From: a virus
IMG/VR virus record: IMGVR_UViG_3300020172_001532
Coordinates: 1-43,548 of that record
Strand: one strand, 5' to 3'
Length of the DNA: 43,548 nucleotides
A program made the translations under genes and the position numbers. Of the stretch, positions 20,608 to 36,979 are shown piece after piece (the stretch's first letter is position 1; each line of letters starts with the position of its first letter). The notes below the pieces were generated by a model. The model saw only the letters and a list, made by a program, of their open reading frames with translations, ran no database searches and was not told the DNA's origin.

Positions 20608-23600
20608 TTATTTAGTGTTTATCTCTTTGATCTTATTTTCCAATTCATCTATTCTGTTGGATTGAGTTTCTAGCATTTGTTGTTGTTCTTGTATTGCCTT
20701 AGTTAATACTGATACAAGATGTTGATATGATAGTGTTAGTATCTCACCTTTTGATATATCACCTTCTTTTCCATAAACCACTTCTGGAATAATCTGCAAC
20801 ATTTCTTGTGCTATAAATCCAACTTGTTCATCACCATTTTCAGTCATGTTATATTGAACTGGATTTAATTTCATAACATCAGTTAAACCATATCCAATAG
20901 ATCTAATGTTTTCTTTAATACGAATATCGGATTGAGAATTTCCACTTGCTGCCGCTGCTTTCGCTGCGTCTTCAGCTGCCTTTTTATCCGCCTGTGTCTT
21001 TTGATATGCGTCATCTGCGGCTTTGGCGGCTGCCTCTTGTTTATCAGCGTCCGCTTGACGTACTGCATCACGGGTTTGTCTTGCAATAAAATCTTTTTCC
21101 GCATCTGCAGGAATCCAGGTATCTGTCACAACATCTCTACTTGTTGTTTTTTCAGGATCGTTTGGATCCTGTTCTATAACTCTTTGTTTGACTTGTACCT
21201 TTTTATATCCCATTTTTGCATATTCCGCATCTGTGATAACGGCTTGCTTTTTGTCTTCTGCTTCAAGTTCTTCAAACGTCTTCAAGTCTGCTTCTCTTGT
21301 TGGATCATCATTTAGATTATTCGCACCACCACCGTCATTTATTCGGAAGAAGTTTACTCTTTCGTCATTTGGAGCTATTGCCGGCATCAAACCATCACCG
21401 TCATCATCATATAATGAATACATGACACCACCCCATTCAGGACGATAATTGCCTATAACTGTAAATCCAACTGCAACTTGAATTGTTTTTGGCAATTGTA
21501 ATACACCAGGTTTTACTTCTTCGTTATTATAGTTTTTATCTTCTTTTAATTGTCCAGTTTCCCAAGTTCCACCGGCGTTATCAAATGTATATGACAATGA
21601 GTTTATGAATCCAGGAGTCTTTCTGAATAGATGACCTATATTCAAACGGCACAATGGTGAACGAAAACGACCTGTGCTATAATCCGGAGCAGTCCATGAT
21701 GCAAGATAATTCAATTTACGCCATGTTGCTGCCTGTTCATCGCGAGAACCAATATGAACAGTAAATCCAAAACTAACATCCCTTTCATAAGAACTGAATA
21801 AATAAATTGGATCTCCTCTACCCATATACATTTGAGGACTCCAACTTGGTTTGTGATTATCAGTTATACTATCAAAAGCAGCACGGAACACAATTGCCTC
21901 AGCTGCTCTACCTTTACTACCATCTAGTTGTGTGCTTGTAAAGTAAAATGTTATTAAATCTTTTTTACCAGGAATTTCTGTATTATCTAATTCATATACA
22001 TCATTATCATTTATTTTCTTTGTATATTTTTTGAAATCTATGATGTTTATTCTATCGCCTCTGAACTCATAACCCTCGCCTTGTTTCTTTACAACTTTTC
22101 CACCGTCATATTTTATATTACTTCGGAATGGTTTACTTCTATCTGCACCAACTTTTCCAGGATTACCAAAACCAAATTTATCTTCCAAATTATTTGTCTT
22201 GTAATCTATTACAGCCGGATCGGTAGAGAATGTTTTTTTCTTATCGCCCCATTCAATATCATGTCTAAAATCATTAAAGTCATGTGAACGGTTAGCATCA
22301 CCGCGTGGAATCTTTTTAAGTTTTCCGTAAGCAACAGCAGCATATTGTTTAATCGGTGCGTCTGCCTGTGTTTCTCCACTAGGTGTTTGTGCCAAAACAT
22401 CTGGTAACTTTATGGGCAGTGTTGATGGAATGTCTACATCACCTGCAGTATTTGCCCGTGTCCTATCAATGTAAGCAATAGGTTTTGGTGTAAAAGGTTC
22501 TCTCTGTTGAAGTAATCTATATGTGCTTTGTTGAACATATGCAAAATTTTCAGGATTATCTTTTCCACCAGGATATTGTTGTGATTCTTTTCCTTTTAAG
22601 AATGATCCACTCAATAGATAAGATAATGCAGTCATTACACCATCAAATGTATCTGTTGAATCTCTAAATTGTTTCTCTAATCTTCCAGAGTATGTGTTAT
22701 TTGCATCTTCTTGTGCAGAATCACCTGTTTTTGTTTTTGGACCAAACCAAGTTTCTCTTTTCGCAGTCGATGGGTATGCACTCGGTAAAATTCCAGATGT
22801 ATCATAGTGAGTCATAAAAGGATGACTTGATCTATTGATTACTGTGATAGCATTTGGATCAGTTCCAGAATTAGGTCCTCCCTTTCCACTCAATCTGAAA
22901 ATTTTTGATCCTCTGGTTTTATACGCATCGGATATTGCGGACGGAAGTTTTGAGTTTATAGGAACAAATGCAGACGGTATCAATTCTGATAAAAGAGCAA
23001 TCAATCTATTGTATTTGTAAACAGAATACACATTTCTAGCATTTTTTATTGCAGAGGATAATATAGTTCCACCGCTAGATGATTGTCTTGGGAAATTCAT
23101 TACATCGGATTTATTACCAAATTCACCTTCGCTAGACGGATTCATTTTTTTAACAACTCTTTCGTAGTAATCGAAGTCATCTGGATCATTAGCATTTGGT
23201 TTGTCACCATGACGAATACGAATAACACGACCTCTAAATGTATTATCGCGTATTGAATCAAGTAATGATGTGGTGTTATACATTCTTGTTTTTGCCGTAG
23301 GAGAATCTAATGTAGATGGTTCATCCCAATTATTAAGTGTGTCTACCAGTGGGTTATTATCATACAATTGTGATTGCAATGTCTGCCATTTTAACCCTCT
23401 TGGACTTTGTAACCAATTATCAATTCTTTGCACATCTGCTTCATTGATAGTTCCAAATTCATCAGAATATCCACCCTTTGCAAGAAATTCCACGGATCCA
23501 CTAGTAAATCGTTTATTGCCCCATAGTTCATTCTTAACAGAATCTTTTACTTGAATACCACGAAGAATATAAGGATCCTGTCTGAATCCATTTGATGCAT

Positions 23601-26600
23601 AAGAATTTGGTTGTAACTGAAACTTTTTATATTGTAAATTCAATTGACCAGCATTTTCTGAAAGACCATATAAATAACTTCCGTTGATTTGTCTATTATC
23701 CCGCATGGTTCTTTCGTATTTTTTATTGTAAGCGCCTGCAGTTTTTGGCAATACTGCCCTACTTGATACATAATACGGATGTGTTGAATCGTTTATTGTT
23801 ATGTTTGGGACTTGATTCTCCAAAGAAGCAAGAGTTCCTGGTTGTGTCCAAGGGCGTTTACCCAAAGATAACGGTGCAAATTCTTCACCTTTAACAGTTG
23901 TTACTCCTCCAGATGCACGAACATTGGAAACTGCAAGTCTTCCGCCATCATCCAAACTGTATGTTAATGTTGGATTTATTATTGGATAAAGAGTTCCATC
24001 ATTTGTTGTCATCTTCGGTAAGAAACCATCTCGTTTCGATGGGGAAAAACCAAAGAAGTTTGTAACTGGAGTATTTAATCCACCAAATGTAACTTTGTTA
24101 GGACCACTTTCAGTTGAGTGTATTGAATATCCAGATTGATAATTTGTTTTTGTTTTGTCCGTATAGAATGTTTGGAAACCTCTACCGGCTTGTGTTGTAT
24201 TATTTTTCTGTTGAACATCAATGTATTGTTTACCGGTTGGTGTTCTGTATAAACCAAAGTAATTGTTACTCGGAGCAGAAGTTCTAGTACCTCTCCAATT
24301 AAAACCTGAAGATTCAGTTGAGTATTCGGTTAGTGGTCTGCCACTACCTTTTCTCATTGTATCTATTGTAAATCCACTAGCATTATCATTTGGAAAATAA
24401 TTTATACCAGTTGGTCTCAAACCATCGAAATCAAATCGAGAAGATTCAGTTACATATTCTGTTTCTGGATTTCCAGCGCCTTTAGGCATTATATCTATTG
24501 TAAATCCATTTTGGTTATTATCTGGAAAGAAACTTTGTCTAGCAGGTCTTCCACCGTCAAAATCAAATATAGATGATTCGGTTTCATATTCCGTGCCAGG
24601 TCTACCACTACCCTTTGCCATAATATCCAAAGTGAAACCACTTTGGTTACTATCTGGAAAGAAACTCTGTGGTTTGGGTCTACTACCATCAAAATCGAAT
24701 CTTGAAGATTCCACTACATATTCTGTTGCAGGTAAACCTTCGTTTCTCTGTATATCCATAGTGAAGCCGGACTGATTCGTATTCGCAAAGAAATCAATTA
24801 CTGACTCTAATGGATTACCAGGTCTTCCACCTTTGAATGTATAGAATGAACTCTCATGGAAATACTCTGTTCCCAATGGTTTGCCAGTTCCCTTTGGTTG
24901 TATATTTAGCGTAAATCCGGCTTGATTTAATTTTTCTTTATCGAAGTAATCTGTTCCTGCCTTTGGAAATTTTCCTACAAATGTAAATTCCGATGAATCC
25001 TTCACATACTTACTATCATATATTTCCGCAAGTCTATGGAAACCTATTGTTGTAAACTTTCCCCTTAAATCAAAATAGTTTACTTGTGGAGACGTGGCTT
25101 TGTTACCATCCCAATCAAATATGGATATTTCTGGAACATACTTTGTATCATATATTTCCGCGAGTCTATGGAAACCTGCAGTGGTTACTCTCTTGCGAAT
25201 ATCAAAAAAGTTCACCTCAGGAGAATCACCGCGTTTGCCATCCCAATCAAATTCAGAAGACTCTGGAATATATTTTGAATCTCGTAATGCAGCAAAATTA
25301 TGAAATCCTATCTTTGTAAATTTTTCTGGTAAATCGAAATAGTTTACAGAAGGAGCAGCATTTCTTGCACCATCCCAATCAAATCTTGAAGATTCTTTTA
25401 TGTATTTTGAATCATACTCTGATGCAAATGTGCTAAAACCAGTAGTAGTATGTGATCCTTGTAAATCAAAATAATTTATAGCAGGTGCATCTACTCTATA
25501 TCCATTCCAATCAAATTCAGAAGAATCTTTAATGTATTTAGATTCTTTGAATGTAGGGAATGTGTGAAAACCAACCGATGTATATTTACCGATAAGATCA
25601 AAATAATTTACAGCAGGAGCGTTTTGTTTAGTTCCGTCAAAATCGAATCGAGAGGAATCTTTTACATATCTACTATCGTATAGTGCATGAAACTTATCAA
25701 ATCCACTATTAGCATATTGATTTTGTATATCGAAATAATTTACAATTGGTGCATCTTGTCTATTTGCATTCCATGTATAAGTTGAAGATTCATTTTTATA
25801 TTTTGATTCCAAGAATGGAGTAAATGTATCAAATCCAGATAGAGTATTTGCAGATGGTATATCAAGATAATTAGCAAACGGAGCATCATCTCTTGTTCCA
25901 GTCCATGTAAATCGTGATGAATCAGGAACATACAACGACTCATATGGTTGAGCAAATGTATTAAATCCGTCAACTGTTTTCTTTGTTGTTAAATCGAAAT
26001 AGTTTACAGCTGGTGCATCTTGTCTATTACCATCCCAAATAAATTCGGATGAATTTTTTACATATTTTGTATCATACTTTTGTGCAAATACATGAAATCC
26101 TGTGTTTGTAAATTGTTTGAATTGATCCAAATAATTAACAGCAGGTGCATTTTCAGTTGGATTTCCTACCCAAACGTATTGTGATGAATCTTGAACATAT
26201 TTTGAATCCATAAAACCGGCAAAGTTATGGAAACCCATATTTGAATTTACACCAGCTTGATCAAAATAATTAACAGAAGGTGATTGTTGTTTGTTTCCAT
26301 CAAAATCAAATATAGACGAATCTGGAATATAATTGGATTGACCTAACTCTGCAAATTTAGTGAAACCTTTTGATGTATTCAAGAATATATTATCAAAGTA
26401 ATTTACTGCAGGTGCACCTAATCTATTTCCTTGCCAACCTAAAAATGATGTTTCGGTTTTATATTCCGTTATTTGCGGTTGTGTGAATACTGTAAATCCA
26501 CCAAGAGTGTTGTTATTATTTCCATCGAAGAAATTTACACCAGTTATTTTTGTAAAATCAAATTGAGAAGAATTTGGTTGATACAAGGATTCTTCGGGAG

Positions 26601-28065
26601 ATACAAACGTCTGAAACCCTCTGCCGTTAATATCAATAAAAGCATTCGTAAATGGTCCTTTATTAGAACCACCTGTCCAAACAAATTGTGAAAATCCAAT
26701 ATATTTACTATCACCGAGTTGTTGTCTTTGATTAAATCCAATTGCAAATTGATTTGAAAAGAAATTAACTTCTTGTAATCCAAGAATAGAATACAATGAA
26801 TTTACTGATCTATCATATCTACCACCTGGAAATGTGGGTGTTATACCATCCAAATTTAATTGACTTCTATCTGTATCATGTATAGTTGTTCCGGTATATC
26901 TAATTGAACTCCTGTCATCCACTTCTATCATTTTTTCAAGTTCCGATGTCCCAATGAATTTTATTGGTGTGCCATCTATATTAAATTCACTACCATCATT
27001 GGTGTGAATAGTGCCTTGATCTAGTCTTAACACAGTAACATCAGGATTTACAACAAGACCTTCCTTTATAGTATCGGTTATTATATTTGGGGATTGTTCT
27101 TGTCTACTAAAACTCAACGGTGGTATTATTGGTTCTATTTCTGGAATTATTATATTATCTACCGCATCATTTACATTTCTTGTAATTTCAACTAAATTTT
27201 CGGTTCTATCAAAAAACTGTGGAGGTCTTGTGATTTGAATTAAAGGATTTGTTATATTACCAATAGGCGATAATACATCGGTATTGATTGCAACTACTTG
27301 GTCTGTTCTATCAAATGATTGTGGTGGAACATTTATTACTATTCCAGGATCGGTTACATTATCAATCGCATTATTTATAGTTCTTGATATATCAGGAGAA
27401 CTATTTTCTCTATCAAATGTTTGTGCAGGTCTGTTTATGTCAGTATCTGATCTATTGTTATTTTGTCCAGGAGTTGTTGGGTTTATTTCAACATCGGATT
27501 CTGCAAGTCTACTTTGAAATCTTGTTTGTGATATTTTTGAAAACTTAGATTCTATTTGATCTAAACCAATTCCAGATGCCAAAGGTAATCTCGAATCACT
27601 AACCGATGGTGATAATGATGAAACACTATTTATCAATAGGTTTTCAACAGGAGTTTGAATTATATCATCTAATTTTGTAGACGATAATCTATCTTGCAAT
27701 TCAACTCTTTTATCGGAAGGGATAACAATATCATCAAAATTTGATGATTCCAATTTGCCAACTAAATCAATTTTGTTTGGTTTTGTTGTATTATCTAATT
27801 CAGTTGTTCCTAATTTTTTCGTAACATCACTTGGTTTAGGTTTTTTTATTTCATCAAGTTTTGTTTTGCTCAACTGACTTGTTAGTGATACTACCTTTGG
27901 TTTTTTTACATTCGGAACTTCTTTGTAAAGTCCGTCTGTTATTGGTTGATTAGTTGCAAAATTTTTGTCACTAGTAGCAGATGAAGCATCAGGAGAACTT
28001 TTGCCCTCCTTTGAAACTTCGGATCTATATTTTGATAAATCAGATTTTAAGTCTACTAATGACAT
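20608..28065 (-). CDS. Giant repeat protein with tube-like domain and C-terminal S74 self-cleaving chaperone
   Basis: A 2485-residue protein, the largest gene here. Order: low-complexity arm with about five L..KL..T.LDDI.KP repeats (55-145); four repeats built on PPQ(T/S)FDR (206-325); about 14 repeats of about 43 residues of the form GFhtFA..YDSKYvkdSSrFdWdGnr.dAPaVNYFD (about 440-1043); five variant GFT(L/I)DI repeats with TEY..ESSrFDFDG (to about 1270); an extended region; a globular domain at about 2005-2215 (FRAAFDSITDN, KLNYLASWTAPDYS, PGFINSLSYTF) resembling tail-tube/baseplate-initiator proteins; an Ala/Lys coiled coil; and a Peptidase_S74 domain with S2379-D-I-R-I-K2384, the Ser-Lys dyad. 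Autocleavage before S2379 would release 107 residues. AAAGGAT precedes the ATG. Confidence 0.85.
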   Translation of the reverse strand: MSLVDLKSDLSKYRSEVSKEGKSSPDASSATSDKNFATNQPITDGLYKEVPNVKKPKVVSLTSQLSKTKLDEIKKPKPSDVTKKLGTTELDNTTKPNKIDLVGKLESSNFDDIVIPSDKRVELQDRLSSTKLDDIIQTPVENLLINSVSSLSPSVSDSRLPLASGIGLDQIESKFSKISQTRFQSRLAESDVEINPTTPGQNNNRSDTDINRPAQTFDRENSSPDISRTINNAIDNVTDPGIVINVPPQSFDRTDQVVAINTDVLSPIGNITNPLIQITRPPQFFDRTENLVEITRNVNDAVDNIIIPEIEPIIPPLSFSRQEQSPNIITDTIKEGLVVNPDVTVLRLDQGTIHTNDGSEFNIDGTPIKFIGTSELEKMIEVDDRSSIRYTGTTIHDTDRSQLNLDGITPTFPGGRYDRSVNSLYSILGLQEVNFFSNQFAIGFNQRQQLGDSKYIGFSQFVWTGGSNKGPFTNAFIDINGRGFQTFVSPEESLYQPNSSQFDFTKITGVNFFDGNNNNTLGGFTVFTQPQITEYKTETSFLGWQGNRLGAPAVNYFDNIFLNTSKGFTKFAELGQSNYIPDSSIFDFDGNKQQSPSVNYFDQAGVNSNMGFHNFAGFMDSKYVQDSSQYVWVGNPTENAPAVNYLDQFKQFTNTGFHVFAQKYDTKYVKNSSEFIWDGNRQDAPAVNYFDLTTKKTVDGFNTFAQPYESLYVPDSSRFTWTGTRDDAPFANYLDIPSANTLSGFDTFTPFLESKYKNESSTYTWNANRQDAPIVNYFDIQNQYANSGFDKFHALYDSRYVKDSSRFDFDGTKQNAPAVNYFDLIGKYTSVGFHTFPTFKESKYIKDSSEFDWNGYRVDAPAINYFDLQGSHTTTGFSTFASEYDSKYIKESSRFDWDGARNAAPSVNYFDLPEKFTKIGFHNFAALRDSKYIPESSEFDWDGKRGDSPEVNFFDIRKRVTTAGFHRLAEIYDTKYVPEISIFDWDGNKATSPQVNYFDLRGKFTTIGFHRLAEIYDSKYVKDSSEFTFVGKFPKAGTDYFDKEKLNQAGFTLNIQPKGTGKPLGTEYFHESSFYTFKGGRPGNPLESVIDFFANTNQSGFTMDIQRNEGLPATEYVVESSRFDFDGSRPKPQSFFPDSNQSGFTLDIMAKGSGRPGTEYETESSIFDFDGGRPARQSFFPDNNQNGFTIDIMPKGAGNPETEYVTESSRFDFDGLRPTGINYFPNDNASGFTIDTMRKGSGRPLTEYSTESSGFNWRGTRTSAPSNNYFGLYRTPTGKQYIDVQQKNNTTQAGRGFQTFYTDKTKTNYQSGYSIHSTESGPNKVTFGGLNTPVTNFFGFSPSKRDGFLPKMTTNDGTLYPIINPTLTYSLDDGGRLAVSNVRASGGVTTVKGEEFAPLSLGKRPWTQPGTLASLENQVPNITINDSTHPYYVSSRAVLPKTAGAYNKKYERTMRDNRQINGSYLYGLSENAGQLNLQYKKFQLQPNSYASNGFRQDPYILRGIQVKDSVKNELWGNKRFTSGSVEFLAKGGYSDEFGTINEADVQRIDNWLQSPRGLKWQTLQSQLYDNNPLVDTLNNWDEPSTLDSPTAKTRMYNTTSLLDSIRDNTFRGRVIRIRHGDKPNANDPDDFDYYERVVKKMNPSSEGEFGNKSDVMNFPRQSSSGGTILSSAIKNARNVYSVYKYNRLIALLSELIPSAFVPINSKLPSAISDAYKTRGSKIFRLSGKGGPNSGTDPNAITVINRSSHPFMTHYDTSGILPSAYPSTAKRETWFGPKTKTGDSAQEDANNTYSGRLEKQFRDSTDTFDGVMTALSYLLSGSFLKGKESQQYPGGKDNPENFAYVQQSTYRLLQQREPFTPKPIAYIDRTRANTAGDVDIPSTLPIKLPDVLAQTPSGETQADAPIKQYAAVAYGKLKKIPRGDANRSHDFNDFRHDIEWGDKKKTFSTDPAVIDYKTNNLEDKFGFGNPGKVGADRSKPFRSNIKYDGGKVVKKQGEGYEFRGDRINIIDFKKYTKKINDNDVYELDNTEIPGKKDLITFYFTSTQLDGSKGRAAEAIVFRAAFDSITDNHKPSWSPQMYMGRGDPIYLFSSYERDVSFGFTVHIGSRDEQAATWRKLNYLASWTAPDYSTGRFRSPLCRLNIGHLFRKTPGFINSLSYTFDNAGGTWETGQLKEDKNYNNEEVKPGVLQLPKTIQVAVGFTVIGNYRPEWGGVMYSLYDDDGDGLMPAIAPNDERVNFFRINDGGGANNLNDDPTREADLKTFEELEAEDKKQAVITDAEYAKMGYKKVQVKQRVIEQDPNDPEKTTSRDVVTDTWIPADAEKDFIARQTRDAVRQADADKQEAAAKAADDAYQKTQADKKAAEDAAKAAAASGNSQSDIRIKENIRSIGYGLTDVMKLNPVQYNMTENGDEQVGFIAQEMLQIIPEVVYGKEGDISKGEILTLSYQHLVSVLTKAIQEQQQMLETQSNRIDELENKIKEINTK
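24255..24930 (-). repeat. Five variant coding repeats (type B) of the giant protein
   Basis: Units share GFT(L/M/I)DI, KG.G.P.TEY and ESS.FDFDG.RP, with FFP in place of NYFD. They appear to be a degenerate sub-family of the type A repeats. Confidence 0.8.
24936..26740 (-). repeat. About 14 coding repeats of about 130 nt (type A)
   Basis: Each unit encodes about 43 residues with GF..FA, Y(D/E)SKY, SS.F.WDG and AP.VNYFD. Protein similarity is high while the DNA has diverged, so the array is old and kept by selection, not a recent expansion. Units next to each other (the two ending HRLAEIYD) are the most alike. Confidence 0.85.
27090..27450 (-). repeat. Four coding repeats built on PPQ(T/S)FDR
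   Basis: Units of about 38 residues with (R/P)PAQTFDR, I...I.NA(I/V)DN and P.I.I motifs, in the N-terminal region of the giant protein, unlike the later arrays. Confidence 0.7.
27630..27900 (-). repeat. About five short coding repeats near the giant protein N-terminus
   Basis: Units of about 20-25 residues: LSKTKLDEIKKP, LGTTELDNTTKP, LESSNFDDIVIP, LSSTKLDDIIQTP. They resemble repeated peptide linkers that could bind a repeating partner. Confidence 0.65.
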
Positions 28066-32289: not shown

Positions 32290-32331
32290 AAAAAAAACGG
32301 TTTACATATCTTGTATAAATATGTAAACCGT
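32290..32331 (-). terminator. Terminator before the tape measure gene, with ATATTTAT in the loop region
   Basis: A perfect 13-bp stem ACGGTTTACATAT/ATATGTAAACCGT (32297-32309 with 32319-32331), followed on the minus strand by seven T. The ATATTTAT element overlaps the loop and stem base, so termination and re-initiation may occur at the same place. Confidence 0.85.
32315..32322 (-). promoter_or_regulatory. ATATTTAT element inside a terminator
   Basis: CATATTTATACAAG context on the minus strand, 46 nt before the tape measure gene, within the hairpin at 32290-32331. Confidence 0.45.
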
Positions 32332-32335
32332 AAAT

Positions 32336-32590
32336 TTATCGTCTTGGTGTTGATGGTTTAGAGAATGTAGGCATACTAACTTTATGTTTTGAAACTTCTG
32401 ATTGTTCTACCTTATTTTTTTCTGCCAACACTTTTTTTACTTGATTGATATAAAACCTTCTCAAATGTATTGGAAGATTGTAAACTTCATCCCAAGTAAA
32501 ACCACCTTTACCATAATAACATAAAGAAAAAATTTCTTCATGTAACCCCAATTTATAATCAGGTTCCAGGCCAAAAAAATGACACCTCAA
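32336..32590 (-). CDS. Tail-assembly chaperone extension, probably made by +1 frameshift from the gp26-like gene
   Basis: An 84-codon frame overlapping the end of the gp26-like gene by 32 nt. It has no ATG until near its C-terminus; its only upstream candidate is TTG at 32590, just after an in-frame stop. The reading continues naturally from the upstream gene through a run of seven T (32573-32579), giving ...EVSFF-GLEPDYKLG. Residues after the junction (HEEIFSLCYYGKGGFTWDEVYNLPIHLRRFYINQ) are like small proteins beside gp26-like genes in marine T4-like phages. Phage tails often make such a two-form chaperone pair just before the tape measure gene, as gpG/gpGT of lambda. The function is assembly of the tape measure (inference). 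Confidence 0.75.
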   Translation of the reverse strand: MRCHFFGLEPDYKLGLHEEIFSLCYYGKGGFTWDEVYNLPIHLRRFYINQVKKVLAEKNKVEQSEVSKHKVSMPTFSKPSTPRR

Positions 32591-33425
32591 CGGGTATGTC
32601 TATCTCCTTTACCTCACCTGTTATATCCGAAACAAACGTAAACGTCATATCCAAATCAGGTGAGATTTCTTTTATGTATGACCGTAACGCTCTTGAATCG
32701 GCTGCAAAAAATTCGTTATCAACGAAACTATTTATAGCAGCTCTTCCAGTTTCACCATCGACTGATGTAATAATATGTTTGAGTCTTGTTGTAAGTTCTC
32801 TATCAATACCTGTTTTTATAGTAGTTTTATTCATAGATTTTATTTCACTTTGCACTTCTTTTTCCATTCCGTGTGTCATCAATCTGAACGTAACTACTCT
32901 CTTTGATATTGGTAATTCAAAATCGAACTCTTTTTTGCCATTCTGAAATAAGCTATAATCGACCTCCTTGTGCTCAATTTCAGTTAAATCTATTGTAACT
33001 TGTTGTTTATTTCCCGGCGAAAATGGATCATCTATTTGAACTGTATAGTCCTTTCCATAACCCAAAATTCTAGCGGCAACCATGATTGCGTTTTTATCAC
33101 CAGTATACAAGTCAGAATAATTGATTGGAGTTACAATCAAAGACTCAAACAATTTGTCTAAAACAACTCCTTGTTTGATAAGATTTTGTGAAGTTAAAAT
33201 ATCTTCTTCTTTTGCAGTCATGTATTTCATTTCAATTACACCGTCTGCAAGTGGATGTCCTTCTGAATACAGTGATCCCTTTGAAGGCAACGGTATTATC
33301 TCTGTTGGAAAGTTTGTTTTTTTAACAGAGGTTTGTTTGTGTTCTGCAAGAAGTTGTGCTTTAATATCTGCATCAGACACAGATTCTTCATTTGCTACAT
33401 TGTAGCCGGTTGGAATTTTTGACAT
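32559..33425 (-). CDS. gp26-like baseplate / tail-assembly protein (short form)
   Basis: A 288-residue protein resembling T4 gp26-type baseplate hub assembly proteins (T4 base plate protein family). It has a flexible N-terminus, then FPTEIIPLPSKGSLYSEGHPL, YMTAKEEDILTSQNLIKQG, a central Asp/Lys-rich domain and a helical RELTTRLKHIITSVDGE section, ending ...VEVSFFWPGT. It is probably a chaperone acting with the frameshifted form that fuses residues 1-284 to the 78 residues encoded at 32336-32572, giving a product of about 362 residues. It lies between the tube gene and tape measure. An ATATTTAT element and a hairpin lie 50-80 nt upstream. Confidence 0.8.
   Translation of the reverse strand: MSKIPTGYNVANEESVSDADIKAQLLAEHKQTSVKKTNFPTEIIPLPSKGSLYSEGHPLADGVIEMKYMTAKEEDILTSQNLIKQGVVLDKLFESLIVTPINYSDLYTGDKNAIMVAARILGYGKDYTVQIDDPFSPGNKQQVTIDLTEIEHKEVDYSLFQNGKKEFDFELPISKRVVTFRLMTHGMEKEVQSEIKSMNKTTIKTGIDRELTTRLKHIITSVDGETGRAAINSFVDNEFFAADSRALRSYIKEISPDLDMTFTFVSDITGEVKEIDIPVEVSFFWPGT
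32573..32588 (-). promoter_or_regulatory. Candidate +1 ribosomal frameshift signal
   Basis: On the minus strand GAGGTG (32583-32588, complementary to the 16S anti-Shine-Dalgarno) is followed after one codon (TCA) by TTT TTT T (32573-32579) and GG. The zero frame reads TTT TTT TGG and stops at TGA (32559-32561); a +1 slip gives TTT TTT GGC and enters the 84-codon frame. The spacing of an internal Shine-Dalgarno 3 nt before the slippery codon is the same as in the prfB +1 frameshift. A -2 shift would give the same frame. Confidence 0.7.
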
Positions 33426-33474: not shown

Positions 33475-33482
33475 ATAAATAT
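33475..33482 (-). promoter_or_regulatory. ATATTTAT element
   Basis: CATATTTATTTAGG context on the minus strand, 50 nt before the gp26-like gene, abutting the hairpin at 33483. Confidence 0.45.
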
Positions 33483-33548: not shown

Positions 33549-34037
33549 TTAGTATTGTAATATAGCATAATCATATGCCAAAGTCAATGAAATCTCAACA
33601 AACGCATCATTTGCCCAATCCATTTCACCGAATGTAGTTGCAGTAATGAAAGCACCTTTGAGTGTCCATTCTTCAACCTTATCACCAACCGGACCGAGAA
33701 CATGAAGTGTTATGTCTTTCTTGTAAAAGTCAGAATAACCATCACGACCTGTTACGGATTCGTGTGAAAGACGTACCCATTCCATTGTTGCCTGAGCAGC
33801 AGAAGGAACGATGGGATCGTACAACTTGATTGTAATGTCTTGCCACTCACCCTTTCCCTTTACCTTGCGTTTGACGTTGATATGGTCAAGTGTGATTGGA
33901 TTGAAACTAATGTTTGGTCTACCAGCACCTTTTACCAAATATGCAGGAACGCCCTCAATATACATAATAAATCGGTTCTGTAATTTTGGCTCAAACGGTG
34001 TGAAAAAAATTTCATTGGGATCGAGTAGTTCAGCCAT
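33549..34037 (-). CDS. 19: Tail tube protein (T4 gp19-like)
   Basis: A 162-residue inner tail tube subunit that stacks in hexameric rings. The start is MAELLDPNEIFFTPFEPKLQNRF; it has the tube-fold pattern with YLVKGAGRPNISF, the WQDITIKLYDPI beta strand, the loop with TMEWVRLSHESVTGRDGYSDFYKKDI and the final strand ISLTLAYDYAILQY, as in gp19-type tubes. GGAG lies 6 nt before the ATG. Preceded by the sheath gene and followed by the assembly chaperone and tape measure. It is probably transcribed on its own, between a terminator (34084-34118) and a hairpin (33483-33509). Confidence 0.93.
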   Translation of the reverse strand: MAELLDPNEIFFTPFEPKLQNRFIMYIEGVPAYLVKGAGRPNISFNPITLDHINVKRKVKGKGEWQDITIKLYDPIVPSAAQATMEWVRLSHESVTGRDGYSDFYKKDITLHVLGPVGDKVEEWTLKGAFITATTFGEMDWANDAFVEISLTLAYDYAILQY

Positions 34038-34069: not shown

Positions 34070-34077
34070 ATAAATAT
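34070..34077 (-). promoter_or_regulatory. ATATTTAT element
   Basis: GTATATTTATTTG context on the minus strand, 33 nt before the tube gene and just past its upstream terminator. Confidence 0.45.
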
Positions 34078-36609: not shown

Positions 36610-36617
36610 ATAAATAT
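36610..36617 (-). promoter_or_regulatory. ATATTTAT element
   Basis: CATATTTATATGAAG context on the minus strand, 43 nt before the sheath gene; the same 15-mer occurs before the 61-residue gene. Confidence 0.45.
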
Positions 36618-36971: not shown

Positions 36972-36979
36972 ATAAATAT
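36972..36979 (-). promoter_or_regulatory. ATATTTAT element
   Basis: ATATATTTATTAGTG context on the minus strand, 38 nt before the 99-residue coiled-coil gene, directly after a weak ATTCTAA/TTAGAAT hairpin (36980-36998). Confidence 0.45.

Follow-up and report, generated by a model that had tools for sequence, protein, structure and literature searches.

A gp26-like tail-assembly chaperone gene in a clade of T4-like phages appears to yield two products through a conserved +1 slip site

The stretch of DNA analysed here in full (hereafter the window; 43,548 nucleotides, or 43.5 kb, with a GC content of 34.5%) comes from a large T4-like bacterial virus with a contractile tail. On its minus strand the tail genes follow the order sheath, tube, gp26-like chaperone, +1-frame open reading frame (ORF), tape measure. 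The sheath gene (36567-34129) is followed by the tail tube protein gene (33549-34037), whose product scores above the cut-off for Pfam PF06841 (Phage_T4_gp19) and matches PHROG 4542 (E 8.3e-28). The gp26-like gene (32559-33425) runs in the zero frame from an ATG to a TGA at 32561-32559 and encodes 288 amino acids, the short form. An ORF in the +1 frame, called as 84 codons from a TTG (32590-32336), overlaps its end, and the next gene (32269-28118, GTG start) matches PHROG 167, tail length tape measure (E 9.9e-7), which bears out the first-pass annotation in siting the overlap directly before the tape measure gene. The chaperone gene thus lies between the tail tube and tape measure genes, as expected of the gpG/gpGT type. 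Beyond the tape measure gene, positions 20608-28065 of the minus strand encode a 2485-residue protein, the last ~120 residues of which match tail fibre C-termini.

Two further features mark the intergenic regions. A hairpin resembling an intrinsic terminator (minus strand, 32297-32331; 15 pairs followed by T8) separates the second ORF from the tape measure gene and recurs at the matching place in many relatives, often with a T run; it may lower expression of the tape measure relative to the tail genes. The element ATATTTAT occurs 12 times in the window, always on the minus, coding strand and often just 5' of genes (copies include 32315-32322, 33475-33482, 34070-34077, 36610-36617, and 36972-36979). 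A similar element precedes the tape measure gene in most relatives, and ATATTTAT may serve this phage group as a late promoter element.

The gp26-like protein matches Pfam PF12322 (T4_baseplate) at 32.5 bits, against a curated cut-off of 24.5, and PHROG 150, baseplate hub. Its predicted zero-frame structure (pLDDT 84) resembles, among viral proteins, uncharacterised phage proteins, baseplate hub subunits, and T4-like baseplate hub assembly proteins. Comparison of the model with the PDB gave no significant match; the sole functionally sensible entry near the top of the list, itself non-significant, was 2ob9_A, the HK97 tail assembly chaperone, at rank 4 (E 1.2, probability 0.47, TM 0.47 by target). 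2OB9 is HK97 gp13, which has the tail assembly chaperone fold.

The two frames overlap by 32 nt counted from the TTG, or by 41 nt from the upstream +1 stop. The junction reads, on the minus strand, GAG GTG TCA TTT TTT TGG CCT GGA ACC TGA, and its elements are GAGGTG (32588-32583), TCA, seven Ts (32579-32573), and then GG. The zero-frame product ends in ...VSFFWPGT, and a +1 step ahead of GGC instead yields ...VSFFGLEPDYKLG, for a product of 362 amino acids. The first-pass annotation had described an 84-codon frame overlapping the gp26-like gene by 32 nt with no ATG near its start, a GAGGTG separated by one codon from seven Ts, and a fusion of ...EVSFF to GLEPDYKLG of about 362 residues; coordinates, motif order, and translation were all reproduced. 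Runs of seven Ts are by themselves not rare in the window (47 over both strands, 3 of them in frame among 23 genes checked), but TTTTTTTGG occurs once in the entire 43.5 kb. It appears from the sequence that some ribosomes skip one base at this conserved TTTTTTTGG signal, so that a short and a long chaperone would be made.

Conservation of the junction was assessed among relatives. A homologue scan of viral contigs returned at least 80 of them at 49-98% identity, and 81 loci were scored: the window, 77 of the listed relatives, and three phage records. The alignment of related phages, a check that the first-pass annotation had proposed, retains the junction TTTTTTTGGCCT in 77 of the 81 loci, with the +1 frame open and homologous; the remaining four read TTTCTTTGGCCT, TTTCTATTCCCT, CTTTTTTGGCCT, and TTTTTTTACCCT. 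Scans begun from the Streptococcus phage homologue and from one jumbo-phage homologue yielded 1 and 3 relatives, respectively. Codon usage was examined in 50 representatives less than 90% identical to each other. The two slip-site Phe codons are TTT in 49 of 49 and 48 of 48 representatives that have Phe there, and seven other conserved Phe columns use TTT at only 57-91%. The Pro that follows is CCT in all 50, invariably so because the codon is dual coding with Leu. Both frames are under selection; for the +1 ORF, purifying selection is seen in a median dN/dS of 0.45 over 598 pairs, and the conserved part of this ORF starts at the slip site itself. Existing annotations give the second frame a gene of its own or leave out most of it. 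It is entered as a separate hypothetical protein in Mel-JY01 (L001, 4845-5081) and as a short piece in immuto (L002, 4848-4958), with no frameshift marked in either record.

This arrangement could in principle represent two ordinary genes, the second starting at TTG 32590 or at a non-standard codon through reinitiation after the gp26 stop. The window does contain the in-frame TTG, the second ORF of two relatives (L202 and L207) starts with ATG, and cyanophage homologues carry an ATG close after the gp26 stop. However, the TTG is missing from many close relatives (for example L009, L015, and L017), and 33 of the 81 loci lack any ATG, GTG, or TTG in the +1 frame between the upstream stop and the conserved GL that opens the domain; 18 of these 33 also lack CTG, ATT, ATC, and ATA, and hence all seven start-like codons. 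Separate initiation would also leave the invariant TTT TTT unexplained. The start-less loci led us to reject an independent start for the +1 clade, and for the window we give the two-gene reading only a slight chance. The first-pass annotation had regarded ATG-started second genes in related phages as evidence against a frameshift. Such genes do exist, together with a changed slip motif, in L202 and L207, but both are nested within the +1 clade.

The variants of the junction indicate which codon slips. Relatives L192-L206, except L202, are ~40% identical to a jumbo-phage homologue and, where inspected, read TTC TTT TGG CCT; their T run is four Ts long, and the second ORF is in the +1 frame. 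The same frame is kept in Flavobacterium phage immuto (L002), with TTT CTT TGG, and in a Streptococcus phage (L003), with TTC TTT CGT; the LR756508 junction is TTT CTA TTC. Common to these variants is a TTT or CTT in the P site, a pyrimidine after it, and a new frame one base on. The UUU-pyrimidine pattern takes the form TTT-TGG in most members, TTT-TAC in L085, TTT-CGT in L003, and TTT-CTA in L004, with L002 as a CTT-T variant. In bacteria, UUU_Ynn is reported to undergo +1 shifts with particular ease, also where no stop codon is present (PMC5009743). Because the sister clade has TTC TTT TGG, the slip can be placed on the second TTT. The first-pass annotation's +1 slip on TTT thus stands as probable, and the family evidence assigns it to the second of the two Phe codons within the T run.

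The same variants bear on two other ways of arriving at this fusion. Transcriptional slippage on the seven Ts, or a -2 ribosomal shift, would reach the identical frame, and most clade members do possess the seven Ts, but L192-L206, L002, and L003 lack T7 and nonetheless keep the second ORF in the +1 frame, and -2 re-pairing is impossible in them; we therefore regard either route as very unlikely. An error in sequencing a homopolymer, splitting one ordinary gene, would fit the location of the junction in a T run. Such an error would have to recur, with identical junction and frame, in 77 separate viral contigs as well as in Mel-JY01, immuto, and LR756508, and members devoid of T7 share the arrangement of frames, making this explanation exceedingly improbable.

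The overlapping frames therefore very probably constitute one tail-assembly chaperone gene with products of two lengths, the longer reached by a +1 slip at the second TTT of the T7 site (32573-32579), where junction conservation, invariant TTT codons, and the TTC TTT TGG of the sister clade converge. The comparison supports the chaperone role, the fused product, and the +1 shift put forward in the first-pass annotation. The products would share their N-terminus, the longer having a C-terminus encoded in an overlapping frame that is entered at a conserved slippery site, again in the manner of gpG/gpGT. In the proposed mechanism, most ribosomes would terminate at the TGA and release the 288-residue gp26-like short form. 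A minority would slip with tRNA-Phe on the second TTT of TTT TTT TGG (P site, 32576-32574) while the Trp codon TGG waits in the A site (32573-32571), the tRNA re-pairing with the overlapping TTT of the UUU-U tetramer. Translation would then resume at GGC (32572-32570) and continue through 32572-32336 (78 codons and a stop), adding a gp51-like C-terminal domain to give the 362-residue long form. By analogy with lambda gpG and gpGT, the short form would coat the tape measure protein and the long form would recruit the tail tube protein. The slippage, its efficiency, and these chaperone roles in the window's phage are predictions drawn from sequence comparison.

What stimulates the slip was considered next to the codons themselves. 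The window and most relatives have TGG in the A site, and because TGG is not rare in the window, a pause at a rare A-site codon was ruled out. No downstream RNA structure was seen at the junction (mean z -0.43 against base shuffles), and a 3' structural stimulator was likewise set aside. Both negatives weigh against the slip model, which supposes a pause at this codon. The first-pass annotation had favoured a prfB-like arrangement, in which GAGGTG pairs with the 16S anti-Shine-Dalgarno sequence and is required to drive the +1 shift. Most members of the nearest subclade do retain GAGGT(A/G), and its strength there exceeds that of a synonymous-codon null (percentiles mostly 0.06-0.13). Shine-Dalgarno sites also precede 78% of gene starts in the window as compared to a background of 30%. 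However, GAGGT is limited to that subclade; most relatives have GATGTC, GATACT, GACACC, or similar sequences, and many +1 relatives have no anti-Shine-Dalgarno match beyond 3 nt (family mean percentile 0.39). Placement of the slip on the second TTT also puts GAGGTG 6 nt, not the proposed 3 nt, from the slip codon, and the A site holds TGG rather than a stop. A Shine-Dalgarno sequence was thus rejected as the family-wide driver, and a required prfB-like element in the window is unlikely. GAGGTG (32583-32588) may instead be a lineage-specific, Shine-Dalgarno-like enhancer that promotes the shift in the window's lineage but does not define it.

T4 gp26 and gp51 are hub assembly chaperones. We found them to be paralogous (profile E 5.1e-18). 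PF12322 genes occur in pairs in T4, 44RR, and EC-F2 and singly in P-SSM2, S-PM2, HTVC008M, and Vi01. The Kyanoviridae among these (P-SSM2, S-PM2, and HTVC008M) are organised like the window: a single gp26 gene and a short second ORF overlap at a conserved Phe-Phe pair, ahead of the tape measure region. They differ in that the second ORF is in the -1 frame, at T TTT TTC followed by a purine and mostly with an ATG close after the stop, whereas that of the window clade is in the +1 frame. The cyanophage gp26 gene ends in NNT TTT TTC, and all 76 cyanophage loci scored have T TTT TTC, a purine as the next base, and an ATG close after the stop. The second ORF of P-SSM2 is annotated as gp51. HTVC008M reads AGT TTT TTT TAA, and no ATG lies close to the junction in its -1 frame.

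An alignment of the window-clade fusion with the cyanophage -1 fusion spans the junction (E 1.9e-8), and the cyanophage fusion in turn matches T4-type gp51 (E 8.9e-14). The second ORFs alone behave in the same way: the window profile matches the cyanophage second ORF (E 6.6e-8), and the latter matches the C-terminus of T4-type gp51 (E 3.6e-8). A direct comparison of the fused family with T4 gp51 is weak (E 0.056) and counts against our preferred explanation. Because the window fusion matches the cyanophage fusion and the latter matches gp51, the counterpart of the long form, reached through the cyanophage homologues, would be gp51 and that of the short form gp26.

The bases flanking the two kinds of slip site are mirror images. 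In the +1 clade, no T directly precedes the T run (0 of 78 loci; 0 of 47 representatives), even though T ends 35% of codons, while in cyanophages a T always stands at this position, with TTC as the second codon and a purine next. The TTC TTT subclade tolerates a T before its slip codons (GGT TTC TTT). The +1 and -1 forms each seem to avoid the slip of the other, although related sequences are not independent observations. In the +1 clade, 61 of 78 loci have G or C as the last base of the codon preceding T7, as compared with only 26% of gp26 codons, and Gly at this position is GGG in 24 of 25 cases. Avoidance of T accounts for part of this excess but not for the preference for G or C over A.

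A tree of 79 proteins contains several long branches, so its deep placements are uncertain. Frameshift-type labels change 5 times on it, against a mean of 21 for shuffled labels. Apart from the Streptococcus phage, the +1 loci fall into a single supported group, to which the ATG-started L202 and L207 also belong; these two are placed beside L002 and L208 and next to slip-bearing relatives. Outside this group lie the Streptococcus +1 phage and the jumbo phages with a -1 arrangement; the duplicated T4-type genes fall on the cyanophage side. From these positions, the ATG starts of L202 and L207 look like a later switch, which suggests that, where the signal is altered, the second ORF can acquire a start codon of its own. 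The gp26/gp51 family has plausibly, on the balance of this evidence, switched among four routes to the long form: a +1 frameshift at V-TTT-TTT-Y in the window's clade; a -1 frameshift, at T-TTT-TTC-R in cyanophages and at different junctions in several jumbo phages; separate initiation of the second ORF in L202 and L207; and gene duplication in T4 and its relatives. The mirror-image bases would then be determinants of direction, and the +1 shift would operate at a sense codon, with neither a conserved Shine-Dalgarno sequence nor a downstream structure. The family would constitute a natural experiment in which the direction of shifting has changed and frameshifting has been replaced by duplication or a new start codon, and the junction offers a compact sense-codon +1 signal with which to probe what makes UUU-Y slippery.

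A 2016 review describes tail-chaperone frameshifting as conserved among long-tailed phages 'except T4' (PMC5009743). Passages in later papers that cite Vladimirov, Gautam and Davidson 2022 refer to gp26 and gp51 as tail assembly chaperones of T4-like phages, to the presence in some of these phages of a short chaperone gene together with a long, fused one (PMC10885494), and to poly-T -1 signals in their chaperone genes (PMC12846349). Forward shifts are also present among actinophage annotations (PMC10885494). The first-pass annotation had considered that a Shine-Dalgarno-driven +1 version in a T4-like phage would be new. The +1 direction probably holds for the window clade, but the cyanophage homologues look like -1 frameshifters, and because of these and the 2022 work on T4-like tail chaperone genes we have toned down the claim to novelty; priority for a +1 chaperone shift in T4-like phages is uncertain.

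Comparison with characterised systems places the window's junction among several partial counterparts. The prfB slip site is CUU_U, rarely UUU_U, and like prfB and the UUU-pyrimidine sites the junction has a P-site NUU codon followed by U, with re-pairing one base on (PMC5009743); unlike prfB, it has the sense codon TGG in the A site and, across its family, no conserved Shine-Dalgarno sequence 3 nt upstream. The tail chaperone of the archaeal myovirus HSTV-2 very likely uses a +1 shift (PMC5009743) and, as described, resembles the window in direction and in belonging to a contractile-tailed virus, although its host is of a different domain. Lambda shifts -1 to make gpGT. In arrangement, gpG/gpGT is like the window, with overlapping frames before the tape measure gene and a short and a frame-shifted long product, but the shift in the window clade would be +1. 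Finally, where T4, 44RR, and EC-F2 have two separate paralogous genes, the window clade has one gene and, very probably, a shift, and would thus be the single-gene, frameshifting counterpart of the T4 gp26/gp51 pair.
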